This document shows, piece after piece, positions 23,503 to 30,756 of a stretch of DNA of 64,000 nucleotides. The notes beneath the pieces are model-generated. The model worked only from the letters and a program-made list of their open reading frames with translations. It was not told the origin of the DNA and did not search any database. The translations under genes and the position numbers were made by a program. The DNA lies in the NCBI GenBank assembly GCA_012522185.1, contig JAAYKY010000022.1, forward strand, positions 1 to 64,000, read 5' to 3'. This stretch comes from Flavobacteriaceae bacterium (lineage in GTDB: Bacteria > Bacteroidota > Bacteroidia > Flavobacteriales > Weeksellaceae). Every line of letters starts with the position of its first letter. Positions within the stretch are counted from its first letter, which is position 1.

Positions 23503-24267
23503 ATGGAAAATAAATATGTAAGTTTTGTATCAGATGAACATTTATTGTTGTGTATTGAGAATTTATACAACGCTTATATAAACGCAAAAAATAATATCTC
23601 TAAAAGAAAATTTTACAAAAACAAAATTGATACTTTTAAATTAACCTTTGACTCAAAATTCAATGACATTGACGAAAATGATTTAGTCCAGTCTGAAATT
23701 TTACGTCAGATAGATAAATCAATCAATAATTCTATCGGAACTTTTCACGAACAAATTTTAGGAGGAATTGATGGTTATGAAATTGGAAATTTGAGTGGAT
23801 TTGATATAAAAGCGAGTGATGATACGCTTTTTGCTGACATAAAAAATAAGCACAATACTATGAACAGTAGCTCTGCTGAAGCTTTGTTTCAAAAATTAGC
23901 AAGATTTGCAGATGATTATAAAAAAGCAAATTGCTATTGGGTTCAAATTTTAGCCAAAGGGAGTTTTAATGAACATTGGAGAGGCGATATAAACGGTAAA
24001 GAGTACAGCCATTCGAGAGTTTTTAAGATTTCAGGAGACCGGTTTTATGCGTTATTAGCAGGCGATGAATATGCTCTTTTTAAATTGTACCAAGCACTTC
24101 CTCAAGCAATTGATGATTTTTTAAATACTTTAGAAAAAGAAAAGAGCGTTGACGAACACTCAGCTTTAGATGAAATTGTATCGGAAACGAAAAGCACACA
24201 AAGATCAATTCTAGATCAGATTACATTTGAAAATTACAGATACTATTTAGGTTTTGATAAACTGTAA
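23503..24267 (+). CDS. Type II restriction endonuclease, Eco47II family
   Basis: 254 residues resembling the Eco47II/Sau96I family (PF09553), whose characterised members cut GGNCC. Family features seen are SEILRQIDKSINNSIGTFHEQ, GFDIKA then FADIKNKHNTMNS, which supplies the catalytic D..(x)..DxK (about Asp101, Asp112, Lys114), and the C-terminal LYQALPQAIDDFL. Its codons are more A/T-rich than the peptidase gene upstream, as is usual for mobile restriction genes. It converges with its methyltransferase and overlaps it by 25 bases. The recognition site is inferred from the family only. Confidence 0.85.
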   Translation: MENKYVSFVSDEHLLLCIENLYNAYINAKNNISKRKFYKNKIDTFKLTFDSKFNDIDENDLVQSEILRQIDKSINNSIGTFHEQILGGIDGYEIGNLSGFDIKASDDTLFADIKNKHNTMNSSSAEALFQKLARFADDYKKANCYWVQILAKGSFNEHWRGDINGKEYSHSRVFKISGDRFYALLAGDEYALFKLYQALPQAIDDFLNTLEKEKSVDEHSALDEIVSETKSTQRSILDQITFENYRYYLGFDKL

Positions 24268-25475
24268 TATTCATTCAAAAATTTTACAACCGAATAACCG
24301 ACTTCTTTGGCTAAATTAACCGGCACTGCATTTCCAATCTGCTTGTATTGTTGTGCTATTGAACCAGCAAATTCCCAATCATCAGGGAAAGTCTGTATTC
24401 TTGCGTATTCACGAACCGTGAAAGGACGAGTTTCATCTGGATGACATCGTTCGGTTTGCTTTTGGGCGGGGCTACAAGTCAATGTTAAACAAGGTTCATC
24501 CCAACCAATCCTTCGTGCCATACCGGTTTTACCACCGCCTAAATAGAAACTTCCTCCCATAAATTCTTTCTGAATATCTATAGGTAAATCTCTCCAATAT
24601 CCTTTTGGAGGCACCAAATCTAAAACTGCTTTTTTACTTTCAGGATATTTTGCACCAGGCGAATCCGGCACATCACATTCATAAAGTTCACCTCTTTTTA
24701 ATGCATCTTTCAGATTATAAATTTTCTTATACGGTTCTGGATAATCAAAAAAAACATCAATATCTTTTCTAATTCCAACTAGAAACAAACGTTCTCTTTT
24801 CTGAGGAACTTTATAAAAAATTGCTTTTAAAACTTGAACCGGAACTACATGATAACCAATCTCGTCTAAAATAGAAATCATCCCTTGCAATGTTTTCCCT
24901 TTGTCATGATTTAAAAGACCTCTGACATTTTCTCCAATACAAATTGCTGGATTTACTTCTTTCACAGCTCGCGCAAATTCATAAAACAAAGTTCCTCTTG
25001 CATCCTCAAATCCTAATCTTTTCCCAGCATAACTAAATGCTTGACAAGGAAAACCACCCGTCACAACATCTATTTTATTTTTATATTCAGAGAAATCAAA
25101 ATCTTTTATATCACCCTCTAAAACATTCCAATGAGGACGGTTAATTCTAAGCGTCTGGCAAGCAAACTTATCAATCTCATTCAAAGCAACACATTTTAAA
25201 CCTGCTTGTTCTAATCCAATTGCCAATCCTCCTGCTCCAGCAAACAATTCCAAAACTTTGTATTCCTGCAATGGTTCAACATAATTTGATATGTCTTCGG
25301 AAATATCTATAAATTCATCAAACAGTTCAAGAACATCCGACTTTTTGTACATTCTATAATTACTAATAGGTTCACGGGCTGCCAAAAGCTTCCCTTCTCT
25401 ATCCCATCTTCGGAGTGTTTCTTTACTTTTCCCAAGCAATTCTGCTGTTTCAGAAAGTGTTAGATATTCATTCAT
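24243..25475 (-). CDS. DNA (cytosine-5) methyltransferase with N-terminal MerR-like HTH
   Basis: 410 residues from the ATG at 25475. Residues 1-55 are a MerR/excisionase-type helix-turn-helix (YLTLSETAELLGKSKETLRRW and a wing YRMYKKSDV). The methylase follows: motif I LELFAGAGGLAIGL (about 78), motif IV GGFPCQAFS with catalytic Cys144, motif VI ENVRGLL (Glu182), motif VIII QKRERLFLVGI, a target-recognition region and motif X QIGNAVPVNLA. It protects the host from the Eco47II-like nuclease it converges with. The DNA-binding head suggests that the methylase represses its own promoter, as M.EcoRII, M.SsoII and M.MspI do with other HTH types; an inverted repeat covers its start region. Confidence 0.9.
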   Translation of the reverse strand: MNEYLTLSETAELLGKSKETLRRWDREGKLLAAREPISNYRMYKKSDVLELFDEFIDISEDISNYVEPLQEYKVLELFAGAGGLAIGLEQAGLKCVALNEIDKFACQTLRINRPHWNVLEGDIKDFDFSEYKNKIDVVTGGFPCQAFSYAGKRLGFEDARGTLFYEFARAVKEVNPAICIGENVRGLLNHDKGKTLQGMISILDEIGYHVVPVQVLKAIFYKVPQKRERLFLVGIRKDIDVFFDYPEPYKKIYNLKDALKRGELYECDVPDSPGAKYPESKKAVLDLVPPKGYWRDLPIDIQKEFMGGSFYLGGGKTGMARRIGWDEPCLTLTCSPAQKQTERCHPDETRPFTVREYARIQTFPDDWEFAGSIAQQYKQIGNAVPVNLAKEVGYSVVKFLNEYYSLSKPK

Positions 25476-25506
25476 AACCAAATTACATAACATTATACAA
25501 TGGTTA
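25475..25506. promoter_or_regulatory. Inverted repeat at the methyltransferase start
   Basis: TAACCA (25475-25480) and TGGTTA (25501-25506) are perfect inverted arms 20 nt apart, covering the region immediately upstream of the methyltransferase ATG. It is a candidate operator for the methyltransferase's own HTH domain. Confidence 0.4.
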
Positions 25507-27036: not shown

Positions 27037-27780
27037 TTATTTCTCAAGCCATAGTTTAAAATCGTTTACCCTTTCGCGAGCCACAATCAACTCCTCCTCT
27101 ACTCCTTTGATAAACAACTGAAAACGACTTCCCGAATGCGTAGTTATACTGTCAATATAGGTAAGATTTATAATTGCATTTCGGCTGATTCGAAAAAAAA
27201 CTTTGGGATTTAGTTGCGATTCCAAATCAATTAAACTTTGTTCAATCGGATATTCGCGATTCTCGGTAAGTAGATAAGTTCCTTTATTTTTTGAATAAAA
27301 ACATCCAATATTCTCTACATTAATCGTCTTTAGATTCGATCCAATTTTCACCAAAAATCTTTCCCGATAAGGATTTTCAAAATTATTGATCAATAAATTT
27401 TTTAACTGAAATGAGTCCCAAATCATCGGATGAATTCGCTCCCGGTATTTCGCTAAAGCTTGACGCAAATCTATTTTATGAATAGGTTTCAATAAATAAT
27501 CTATACTATTGAATTTAAACGCTTTGAGCGCATATTCATCATAGGCGGTTGTGAAAATAATTGAACTTTTGGGCTTCACTTCTTTAAAAATCTCGAAACT
27601 AATTCCATCTCCAAGTTGAATGTCCAAAAAAATTAAATCGGGATCTTCATTATTTTGAAACCAATGAATGGATTCCTTCACGCTATTGAGCATCGCAATG
27701 GGTTCGATTCCTTCGTCTTGAAGTAATTTCACCAAATAGCGTGCAGCGGGTTTTTCGTCTTCTATGATGATGGTTTTCAT
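27037..27780 (-). CDS. LytTR-type response regulator
   Basis: 247 residues: a receiver domain (1-118) with acidic pair EDE near residue 7-9, phosphoacceptor Asp53 in LIFLDIQLGDG and Lys in DYLLKPI, then a LytTR DNA-binding domain (about 142-245, with FLVKIGSNLKTI, FFRISRNAIINL and a terminal ARERVNDFKLWL). LytTR domains bind paired direct repeats of about 9-11 bp; just such a pair lies upstream of the kinase gene. It is the last gene of the kinase-2TM-regulator operon (16 bp after the 2TM gene) and should be activated by the kinase encoded two genes upstream. Confidence 0.93.
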   Translation of the reverse strand: MKTIIIEDEKPAARYLVKLLQDEGIEPIAMLNSVKESIHWFQNNEDPDLIFLDIQLGDGISFEIFKEVKPKSSIIFTTAYDEYALKAFKFNSIDYLLKPIHKIDLRQALAKYRERIHPMIWDSFQLKNLLINNFENPYRERFLVKIGSNLKTINVENIGCFYSKNKGTYLLTENREYPIEQSLIDLESQLNPKVFFRISRNAIINLTYIDSITTHSGSRFQLFIKGVEEELIVARERVNDFKLWLEK

Positions 27781-27795
27781 GGATTTAATTTAGAA

Positions 27796-28092
27796 TCAAT
27801 TATTGGTTCTTATTTTTCTTTGCTTTTCTAATTCCTTTCGAATTTGTTTTTCTTTCCATGTCGAACTATTGAAAAACCCAAAAACGCCAAGTCCATGAAA
27901 AATCAATCCGATTCCCCATCCTGCAATCGGAAAAATAGGCCAGAAAAAACCTCCATTTCTCAAGCTAAGAAAACTTAAAAATCCGTTTACAATCAAATAA
28001 CAACTTAAGTGAATGTAAAATCCAATTTTCTCCTCGACTGCTTTTTTTGCAATCTCATACTCTTCTACTGTATAATTTTTTTGTGCTTCCAT
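27796..28092 (-). CDS. 2TM domain protein
   Basis: 98 residues with two transmembrane helices (about 25-42 and 50-72) and the 2TM-domain ending VFGFFNSSTWKEKQIRKELEKQRK. The same domain, very similar in layout, forms the C-terminus of the histidine kinase upstream (GFFNSSSWKDRMIQKELERKKK). 2TM proteins commonly sit beside LytTR systems in Flavobacteriia but have no assigned function. It lies between the kinase (16 bp) and the regulator (15 bp), all one transcript. An adaptor or partner role toward the kinase's own 2TM tail is an inference. Confidence 0.85.
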   Translation of the reverse strand: MEAQKNYTVEEYEIAKKAVEEKIGFYIHLSCYLIVNGFLSFLSLRNGGFFWPIFPIAGWGIGLIFHGLGVFGFFNSSTWKEKQIRKELEKQRKIRTNN

Positions 28093-28108: not shown

Positions 28109-29461
28109 TTAGTTGAATCGTTCAGTTTCCTTTTTCTTTCGCTCTAATTCCTTTTGAATCATTCGATCTTTCCAAGAACTGGAATTAAAAAATCCAAAAA
28201 CCTCGATGTAATGGAAAAAAACGCCCATTCCCCATCCCAAAAGCGCCCAATAAGCCCAATCGTAACTTCCATCTCTTAAATCCAGAAACGTCAAAAAAAG
28301 ATTTACGATGATGTAACTCGCCAGATTCCAATAAAAATCCTGAACATCATCAACTCGTTTTTTCGCCGCTTTGATTTCTTCTTTTGTGTAATTTTGTTCT
28401 ACTTCCATAGCAATTGTTTTTTCTGTTAATAAAGGAATTCTTACCCTGAATTCTTCTGCAGTTTGATGAATTTCAACTTCTTTTCGGGTGAAAGTTTTAT
28501 AGCGATTTATGATGTTCCGAAGTCCTTTTCCAGTGCTATCATGAAGTTGACTCTTAAGCTGTAAATTATTTATAATCAACAAATAATATCCCTCCAAACT
28601 GACTTGAACCTTCAAAGGCTCTTCCGATGAAATTCGATTGTGTTTGATGCAATTCTCCAATAAGATCTGAAGCGAAAGTGGAACAATTTTATAACCAGTT
28701 GGAATTTCAGATGCAATTTCAAATTCAAGTCCGTCTTCGTATCGTTTCTGAATTAAATTCATATACGTTCGACTGAATTCAATTTCCTCTTCCAATGAAA
28801 CCAAAGCTTTGTCCTTTTGCTCCAATACGTAGCGATAAACCCTAGAAAGTTCCCCCACAAATTCTTGTGCATTCTCAGGGTTTTCTACTATCAATCCATT
28901 GAGCACATTCAAACTATTGAATAGAAAATGGGAACCGATTTGGGATTTTAAGGATTCATGTTCCGTGGAAATCTGTATGACTTTTTCCTTTTGTTCTTTT
29001 AATTTATGGGCTTGATAATGCTGAATTAGAGCGATAACGTGAAAAATAGTGGCAATCGTCGTAGCAATCCAAATCAACCTGCTCAGAGAATCCAAAGATT
29101 TCATGGAAAGTATCCAATTTGTAGAATCTTTCAAGTCGTTACCCAATACGAGCAACATCAGGAAATAGAGAATCCCTCCTGCCAAAAGTGTTACAATACT
29201 GCTTCCCAAAATTCCAGTCAACAAGCGTTTGGTAAAACTCTTCCAATCAAATCCTGGAAATTTCTTTTCCACAAAATCGGAAACAGGCGCATTGGCAAAA
29301 TAAAGTCCGATAGTGAAAAACAAAGTCCATAGAAAATTGGTCAATATGTCTTTCCACACGGGAAGTTGTTTGTTATTGAAGATGTACAACAAGATGAAAA
29401 ACAATGAAATCAGCACCGAAATCACGGAAATATTGCGGATATGTCGGTTCAGTTTTTTCAT
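28109..29461 (-). CDS. LytS-like histidine kinase with fused C-terminal 2TM domain
   Basis: 450 residues from the ATG at 29461; an upstream frame extension to 29599 would start inside the operator. Four hydrophobic segments occupy residues 12-28, 40-58, 82-107 and 125-147. The His_kinase domain has the phosphoacceptor His178 in QIGSHFLFNSLN (the usual Pro before His is Ser) and an HATPase with Asn270 (LLENCIKHN) and GKGLRNIINR. After the ATPase, residues 358-450 form a complete 2TM domain with EEIKAAKKRV, two helices and a basic tail. A kinase with membrane spans at both ends would place its catalytic core in a loop between membrane anchors. It heads the operon with a free 2TM protein and a LytTR regulator. 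Confidence 0.9.
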   Translation of the reverse strand: MKKLNRHIRNISVISVLISLFFILLYIFNNKQLPVWKDILTNFLWTLFFTIGLYFANAPVSDFVEKKFPGFDWKSFTKRLLTGILGSSIVTLLAGGILYFLMLLVLGNDLKDSTNWILSMKSLDSLSRLIWIATTIATIFHVIALIQHYQAHKLKEQKEKVIQISTEHESLKSQIGSHFLFNSLNVLNGLIVENPENAQEFVGELSRVYRYVLEQKDKALVSLEEEIEFSRTYMNLIQKRYEDGLEFEIASEIPTGYKIVPLSLQILLENCIKHNRISSEEPLKVQVSLEGYYLLIINNLQLKSQLHDSTGKGLRNIINRYKTFTRKEVEIHQTAEEFRVRIPLLTEKTIAMEVEQNYTKEEIKAAKKRVDDVQDFYWNLASYIIVNLFLTFLDLRDGSYDWAYWALLGWGMGVFFHYIEVFGFFNSSSWKDRMIQKELERKKKETERFN

Positions 29462-29539
29462 TTGATAAACCATTCTAAAATCAAAACACTGAGATAAATT
29501 ATAATCCGAATCATCGTTTTTACATTTAATTAATTGGAT

Positions 29540-29613
29540 CAAAATTCGCTCATCGAATAAATTTATCAAAAAACTTTTGGATGAACTGTAAAATTCCAAT
29601 GATGAATTGTAAA
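29540..29613 (-). promoter_or_regulatory. LytTR operator pair and promoter of the kinase operon
   Basis: On the minus strand the 13-mers TTTACAATTCATC (29613-29601) and TTTACAGTTCATC (29592-29580) differ by one base and are 21 bp apart, the pair geometry and ACAnTTCA core of LytTR-domain sites (AgrA, ComE). Ten nt further comes TTTG (29570-29567), then exactly 19 nt, then GAATTTTG (29547-29540), one mismatch to TAnnTTTG. The operator is placed as for an activator touching RNA polymerase at -33. Confidence 0.72.
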
Positions 29614-29634: not shown

Positions 29635-30756
29635 TCAATTCAATCCTTCCCACCATTTTGTGAAATTTTGAGTGGAATCTTTCAGAAAGAAAGTTTCGCC
29701 GATTTTGGGCGTCACATACGGCATTCCGACTTTTTCTGCTTCGATGATTACACGTTTCATCGGATCGTCCCAAGTATGATTTCCTAATTTGAATTTTGAA
29801 TTATGAACCGGCATAAATCGTTTCGCTTTCAGTTCCTGCGCGACTTTCACAACTTCTTCAGGCAAAAAGTGGATGTATTTCCATTTCTCATCATATTGTC
29901 CGTTTTCCAAAATCGCCAGATCAAATGGACCGAATTCCTCACCGATTTTTTTGAAATGTGAATCATAACCGGAATCTCCTCCAATGAAAATTTTGCTTTT
30001 AGGTGTTTCCAACACAAAAGAAACCCAAAGTGTGTTGTTTCGCTTAAAAGTTCTTCCCGAAAAATGCCTTCCCGGAACGGCATAAATCTGAATGGAATCA
30101 TCCAGTTTCAGACTTTCGTTCCAATCCAATTCAGTGATTATTTTTGGATCATATCCCCAATGTTCCAGGTGTGCACCTACGCCCAATCCGGTGATCACTT
30201 TTTTTACTTTGGGAATCAAATCAATAACTGTTTTATGGTCTAGATGATCGTAATGATCGTGTGTGATGAGCATATAATCAATTTCAGGAAGGTCGGCGGC
30301 CGTGGCAATTTCACTTCCGGGAAAAGCACGATTGGTACCCGCAAGCGGCGAAGCATTTCCGCTGAAAACCGGGTCAATCAGGTATTTTTTTCCTTCTAAT
30401 TGAATGTAATACGATGAATGCCCAAACCAAATCAGCAAATCTTCATCGGGATCTAAATTCTTCCAATCGGGTTTGACAGAAGGAATAGAATCCAGCGGTA
30501 CTACATTCGGATATTTTGTAAAAAGAAAATCCCAGAAAACGCCAAACATCGTATAACCTTCGGCCAACGAAGGTGTTTCTGTCAAGTTGTGAAATTGTCC
30601 ATTGCGGTAATTCGGAGATTTTTGAATTCGTTCCAAACGCTCTCCCGATGGTGCTTTCCCAAATATTGGATGTTGCATATAACCCCAAATTCCAAGGATC
30701 ATCAAACTCATCAGCACCAAAAATCCAATCAACATTTTCTTTATTTTTTTCTTCAT
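29635..30756 (-). CDS. MBL-fold metallohydrolase (UlaG/NAPE-PLD-like), membrane-anchored
   Basis: 373 residues with an N-terminal hydrophobic anchor (about 8-27) and a metallo-beta-lactamase fold. LLIWFGHSSYYIQLEG opens the domain, LITHDHYDHLD is the HxHxDH metal motif, PGRHFSGRTF and GGDSGYDSHFKKIG carry later ligands, and PVHNSKFKLG ends the site. The closest described families are the lactonase UlaG and the phospholipase D NAPE-PLD, which share this layout; the substrate is not known. The protein is probably anchored in the periplasmic face of the membrane. Confidence 0.85.
   Translation of the reverse strand: MKKKIKKMLIGFLVLMSLMILGIWGYMQHPIFGKAPSGERLERIQKSPNYRNGQFHNLTETPSLAEGYTMFGVFWDFLFTKYPNVVPLDSIPSVKPDWKNLDPDEDLLIWFGHSSYYIQLEGKKYLIDPVFSGNASPLAGTNRAFPGSEIATAADLPEIDYMLITHDHYDHLDHKTVIDLIPKVKKVITGLGVGAHLEHWGYDPKIITELDWNESLKLDDSIQIYAVPGRHFSGRTFKRNNTLWVSFVLETPKSKIFIGGDSGYDSHFKKIGEEFGPFDLAILENGQYDEKWKYIHFLPEEVVKVAQELKAKRFMPVHNSKFKLGNHTWDDPMKRVIIEAEKVGMPYVTPKIGETFFLKDSTQNFTKWWEGLN

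Follow-up and report, generated by a model that had tools for sequence, protein, structure and literature searches.

The window, by which we mean the whole 64-kb stretch of DNA analyzed here, carries on its minus strand an operon encoding a LytS-type histidine kinase, a 2TM-domain protein and a response regulator that combines a receiver with a LytTR DNA-binding domain (Table 1). A sequence-only reading of the locus had claimed that the operon encodes its own LytTR regulator, and this was borne out: the regulator gene, last of the operon, is the single LytTR gene of the 2.55 Mb genome. Both domains of the 27037-27780 product (PF00072 and PF04397) exceed the curated Pfam cut-offs, with 75.1 bits for LytTR (cut-off 22.6) and 56 bits for Response_reg (cut-off 30.2). 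The phosphoacceptor D53 is invariant in 20 sequences, and the LytTR signature FhRhHRS (PMC4227749) reads FFRISRN in the window regulator, in agreement at 5 of 7 positions. When solved structures were searched by sequence, nearly all matches were to receiver domains, and 3d6w was the sole LytTR-type structure reached. The kinase carries an HFLFNSLN box, and the co-encoding of a PF06580 kinase with a receiver-LytTR regulator identifies the pair as a LytS/LytTR two-component system. The reading frames for the kinase, the 2TM protein and the LytTR regulator are all intact, and the catalytic residues are kept. The H-box of the kinase reads IGSHFLFNSLN in the window and IGPHFLFNSLN in the relatives L002 and L004.

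Table 1. Coordinates of the operon, its upstream elements and a short upstream reading frame in the window
Feature	Position	Strand	Basis or remark
LytTR half-site 1 (distal), ACAATTCAT	29602..29610	-	about -75 to -67 from the predicted transcription start
LytTR half-site 2 (proximal), ACAGTTCAT	29581..29589	-	9-bp half-site and 12-bp spacer give a period of 21 bp; spans about -54 to -46
-33 promoter element TTTG	29567..29570	-	follows half-site 2 after 10 bp
-7 promoter element GAATTTTG (consensus TAnnTTTG)	29540..29547	-	half-site 2 begins 46 nt before its TTTG
18-codon ORF (MIRIIIYLSVLILEWFIK, then stop), probable remnant of a TPR-like gene	29458..29514	-	position and peptide similarity
LytS-type histidine kinase (PF06580) with C-terminal 2TM domain (PF13239)	28109..29461	-	Pfam
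2TM-domain protein (PF13239), 98 aa	27796..28092	-	Pfam
Response regulator: receiver (PF00072, phosphoacceptor D53) and LytTR DNA-binding domain (PF04397)	27037..27780	-	Pfam

The only two 2TM domains of the genome both lie in this operon, one as a stand-alone gene (27796-28092) and one fused to the C terminus of the kinase (28109-29461). Operons of relatives hold about two to five 2TM copies, a variation that suggests repeated local duplication. The ORF finder placed the kinase start at TTG 29599, which would put the operator described below inside the gene; the ATG at 29461 (MKKLNRH), as in relatives, is most likely the initiation codon. Directly upstream of the operator lies a gene for a metallo-beta-lactamase-fold hydrolase (29635-30756, minus strand), and the same hydrolase precedes the operon in L003 and L004 with 68-70% identity. 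Inspection by eye revealed no obvious terminator between hydrolase and operator, so that read-through into the operon is possible. Elsewhere in the window, an ORF at 24243-25493 (minus strand) looks by eye like a C5 DNA methyltransferase with a GGFPCQAFS motif, and the adjoining convergent ORF of 254 aa (region 23503-25493) could be its restriction enzyme partner.

The repeat pair and its promoter

Two 13-mers, TTTACAATTCATC (29613-29601) and TTTACAGTTCATC (29592-29580), start 21 bp apart on the minus strand; TTTACARTTCATC has no further exact match in the 64-kb window. The whole element reads ACAATTCAT-N12-ACAGTTCAT, then 10 bp, then TTTG-N19-GAATTTTG. The -33 TTTG and the 19-bp spacer are exact, and the -7 element departs from TAnnTTTG by one mismatch at its first base, an off-consensus base common to the closest relatives L002-L004. 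Pair and promoter had both been pointed out in the sequence-only reading, and both were recovered where it had placed them, the one-mismatch promoter lying 10 nt past the pair at 29570-29540. Since the flavobacterial -7 box occupies positions -12 to -5 (PMC9723704), the transcription start is predicted near 29535, and the half-sites are predicted to be centered near -71 and -50. The pair also agrees with the published definition of such operators as two direct repeats of 9-11 nt separated by 11-13 nt (PMC4847170).

In first-order Markov shuffles of the window, loose half-site pairs numbered 0.047 per 64 kb with both strands counted; none of 300 such shuffles contained a pair together with the promoter. 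Together with the reversed-pattern controls given below, these shuffles place the pair well outside chance expectation; it is the only pair without mismatch in the whole genome. We conclude from the sequence that it is almost certainly the operator of a LytTR regulator. The binder would be the regulator of the operon itself, because the genome holds a single LytTR gene, located in the same operon, and because the half-sites fit the published LytTR grammar.

Conservation and promoter logo

We collected 80 related Bacteroidota loci via relatives of the regulator, the closest of which belong to three Moheibacter genomes (77-79% identity), and scanned both strands for pairs of a loose half-site, ACAnYTSR, at spacings 8 to 60. 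As this pattern was derived from the same 80 loci, spacing and strand are the internal controls of the scan. On the coding strand, 55 loose pairs were found at spacing 21 and 0-3 at every other spacing, and the opposite strand of the 80 loci held none at spacing 21. In 48 of the 55 pairs, AnnTTTG occurs at exactly the distance seen in the window (+46, its TTTG 46 nt from the second half-site). The combined operator-promoter pattern ACANYTSR-N13-ACANYTSR-N35-ANNTTTG is matched in 32 of 148 genomes of the family and in 44 of 246 of the order, two sets that share some genomes, and its reversed form gave no match in either. By hand count, at least 26 of 38 family sites are followed within about 5 kb by a LytTR gene on the same strand; the mere presence of a LytTR gene is uninformative as a contingency test because 140 of the 148 family genomes have one. 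The sequence-only reading would have been refuted by absence of the pair upstream of orthologous operons, but the pair is there: each of the six genomes of the genus has it, as do many other Flavobacteriales, with a 21-bp period and a fixed promoter distance. A hand-made weight matrix, partly built from the sites of the window itself, was dropped as evidence and replaced by the spacing scan and independent genomes. We likewise make no phylum-wide claim: matches to a pattern relaxed to ACM are scattered outside Flavobacteriales, and some matches appear in the control too.

A logo drawn from 75 non-redundant sites and read at its unconstrained positions shows ACARYTCATCC, an A-tract in the spacer, then ACARTTC[A/G]GTA. 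The -33 position reads TTT, with the G present in 7 of 75 sites only, and the -7 box begins with C in 28 sites, G in 27, T in 20 and never A. C or G thus occupies this position in 55 of 75 Flavobacteriales sites despite an AT-rich background; unlinked TTTG-N19-NAnnTTTG matches, examined as a control for this base, were mostly background. A core promoter so systematically off consensus is what dependence on an activator would predict. Within the genus, all six genomes carry the full -33 TTTG, and the closest relatives share GAATTTTG, so that some basal activity without the regulator is plausible there.

Genes downstream of the sites

If the longest ORF with its start no more than 350 nt from the promoter is counted as the first gene, 61 sites yield four sequence clusters and five families of first genes, with no unrelated gene among them: a TPR-like exported protein plus DUF2141 (28 sites), LytS kinases (18), TonB-dependent receptors (13) and DUF2807 proteins (2). 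A Flavobacterium locus (L171) illustrates the organization, with a site, a TonB receptor gene, a second site, and then DUF2141, TPR, kinase, 2TM and LytTR genes in that order. Exceptions occur among sites viewed only in larger regions, in which a predicted membrane protein lies nearby in one case (L167) and an alpha/beta hydrolase follows the site in another (L170); in two further regions of this kind (L179, L180), the sites are upstream of other LytS/LytTR pairs. Three Flavobacteriales loci (L172, L173, L176) have sites before DUF2807 genes, beside genes that by appearance are PadR-type and PspC-like, hinting at a link to envelope stress. Another region (L181, 7461-7619) contains two divergent, back-to-back operator-promoter modules, one before a TonB receptor gene and the other facing away.

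Within the genus of the window genome, the module is found in six of six genomes. In the remaining five, the gene behind it, first in the operon, is TPR-like, with the kinase next where the sequence was read, and in two of them (L131, L222) a second site lies before a TonB receptor gene. A homology search of the window genome gave no match for the TPR-like protein, nor a close ortholog of the TonB receptor beyond partial matches of about 25%, and no other regulon member was recognized there as an ortholog with a site. Candidate second targets from scans of the same genome with 3 mismatches were discarded, the near-matches inspected lying in coding sequence or lacking a -7 box at the fixed distance; the reversed-pattern control of these scans also gave many matches (9 versus 26 and 24 versus 42).

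What may be left of the TPR-like gene is an ORF of 18 codons (MIRIIIYLSVLILEWFIK and a stop), which begins 25 nt from the TTTG, compared with 25-28 nt for the TPR-like gene in relatives, and whose stop overlaps the kinase start as ATGA. Its product resembles TPR signal peptides such as MQKLIIILSVLLL, with 8 of 13 residues identical. The summed in-frame similarity score counted from the start codon was reached by 155 of 20000 shuffled peptides and by 57 of 20000 shuffled DNA sequences; a local alignment of the leader against the TPR gene alone was not significant. With moderate confidence, we interpret this ORF as the scar of a deletion of the TPR-like gene, an interpretation that places the kinase start at 29461. 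The sequence-only reading had described the switch as intact with all parts visible. The pair, the promoter and the single LytTR gene are indeed present, but the first gene found in five other genomes of the genus is missing and no other regulon member with a site was recognized, so that the window genome appears to hold a reduced, mainly self-regulating version.

On balance, we think it probable that these sites belong to a Flavobacteriales-wide LytTR module of rigid geometry (21 bp, 46 bp) and off-consensus core, governing a small and so far undescribed regulon of the cell envelope that comprises 2TM, LytS/LytTR, DUF2141 and DUF2807 proteins, the TonB-dependent receptor and the TPR-like exported protein. 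The window genome, its first gene deleted, would have kept just the self-activating core of this regulon. This would join otherwise unnamed families, 2TM, the TPR-like protein, DUF2141, DUF2807 and the TonB receptor, in one regulon, and would provide an exact operator-promoter grammar with which the LytTR system of many flavobacteria can be searched. We found no description of this half-site grammar or of a Flavobacteriales-wide regulon in the open-access literature, which is weak evidence of absence.

Mode of action and relation to known systems

What was computed here is the site with its geometry, how far it is conserved, how it is linked to LytTR operons, and which families form the regulon; binding by the regulator, its dependence on phosphorylation, activation as the direction of the effect, and a signal are proposed by analogy with ComE, YpdB, AgrA and LytTR Regulatory Systems. 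We consider it highly probable that the LytTR regulator encoded by the operon has its operator in the repeat pair and, once phosphorylated, activates its own operon in a positive feedback. A membrane signal would activate the LytS-type kinase, which would phosphorylate D53 of the regulator. Two LytTR molecules could then bind at the half-sites, on the same DNA face given the two helical turns in 21 bp, just upstream of -33, and help RNA polymerase at a sub-consensus promoter, thereby raising expression of the kinase/2TM/LytTR operon. In related genomes, the same module would also drive the genes for the TPR-like exported protein, the TonB-dependent receptor and the DUF2141 and DUF2807 proteins. 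The self-activating switch proposed in the sequence-only reading is therefore supported by conservation among orthologs and by the single LytTR gene in the operon, while binding and activation are inferred.

The regulator could instead repress its own operon from the same operator, for example by blocking polymerase or by binding in the unphosphorylated state, and the full -33 TTTG and one-mismatch -7 box kept in the genus would allow a promoter able to fire unaided. This is unlikely, given that the half-sites end 10 bp upstream of -33 and do not overlap the core promoter, which is the activator position of ComE and of LytTR Regulatory Systems (LRS) (PMC6001120, PMC6193735), and that across Flavobacteriales the mostly missing -33 G (present in 7/75) and the off-consensus first -7 base (55/75) resemble activator-dependent promoters. 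Loss of the first gene and of the other targets may also have left a decaying, functionless switch, as the absent TPR-like gene with its probable 18-codon remnant, the lack of a TonB-receptor ortholog and of a second site, and the kinase H-box (IGSHFLFN versus IGPHFLFN in L002 and L004) could indicate. Both half-sites are nonetheless nearer the consensus than in several relatives, and the intact kinase, 2TM and LytTR frames with their catalytic residues argue for ongoing selection; we regard such a relic as quite unlikely.

That a different regulator binds the pair and happens to control the operon seems very unlikely from the sequence: the site grammar is LytTR-like, the operon encodes the sole LytTR protein of the genome, and most family sites lie upstream of LytS/LytTR operons. 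A chance repeat devoid of function is hardly credible, being already refuted by conservation at fixed geometry, by the shuffles and by the reversed-pattern controls. Activation of the operon by its own LytTR regulator is the reading we retain, and the window genome, as a minimal case with a single LytTR gene, offers a circuit that could be tested free of cross-talk from paralogs.

The type of site is already known from the ComE box, YpdB, LRS and a Bacteroides precedent (PMC6193735). The ComE box of Streptococcus pneumoniae and S. mitis, aCAnTTcaG-12-aCAgTTgaG, is near-identical to ACAATTCAT-12-ACAGTTCAT, has the same 21-bp period and likewise lies upstream of an autoregulated LytTR operon (PMC6001120). 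Its distance to the -10 box is 31-32 bp (42 in one case; PMC6001120), and that of the window pair to the -7 box is 33 bp. ComE, however, acts with a streptococcal sigma-70 promoter and a peptide-sensing kinase, whereas the window has a Bacteroidota TTTG/TAnnTTTG promoter, a LytS-type kinase (PF06580) with a 2TM domain, and target genes unrelated to those of ComE. In LRS, the repeats lie about 10 bp upstream of the promoter, and in an LRS-like case of B. thetaiotaomicron 11 bp upstream of TGTA-N19-TATCTTTG (PMC6193735). These systems, which are not two-component systems, pair a LytTR protein with a membrane inhibitor (PMC6193735), whereas the window operon encodes a histidine kinase and a receiver-LytTR regulator in place of such a pairing, and its half-sites differ in sequence from theirs. 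The window operon is thus a two-component system whose mode of working resembles the feedback loop of an LRS. Bacteroidota are rich in two-component systems, yet few transcription-factor sites have been defined in them; the remark in the sequence-only reading that such sites are rarely defined in this phylum is fair, except that direct repeats of the same logic had already been proposed for Bacteroides LytTR operons (PMC6193735).

YpdA/YpdB of Escherichia coli also combines a LytS-type kinase with a LytTR response regulator acting on a direct repeat, GGCATTTCAT, at a single target promoter, but its target is a separate transporter gene, yhjX, and not its own operon, and the repeat matches that of the window only partially (PMC4847170). 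AgrA of Staphylococcus aureus is likewise a LytTR activator of suboptimal core promoters, P2 and P3, that of its own operon included (PMC4227749); it works with another kinase class and signal, and its promoters are suboptimal in their spacer (PMC4227749), whereas those related to the window are off consensus at -33 and -7 bases across sites.
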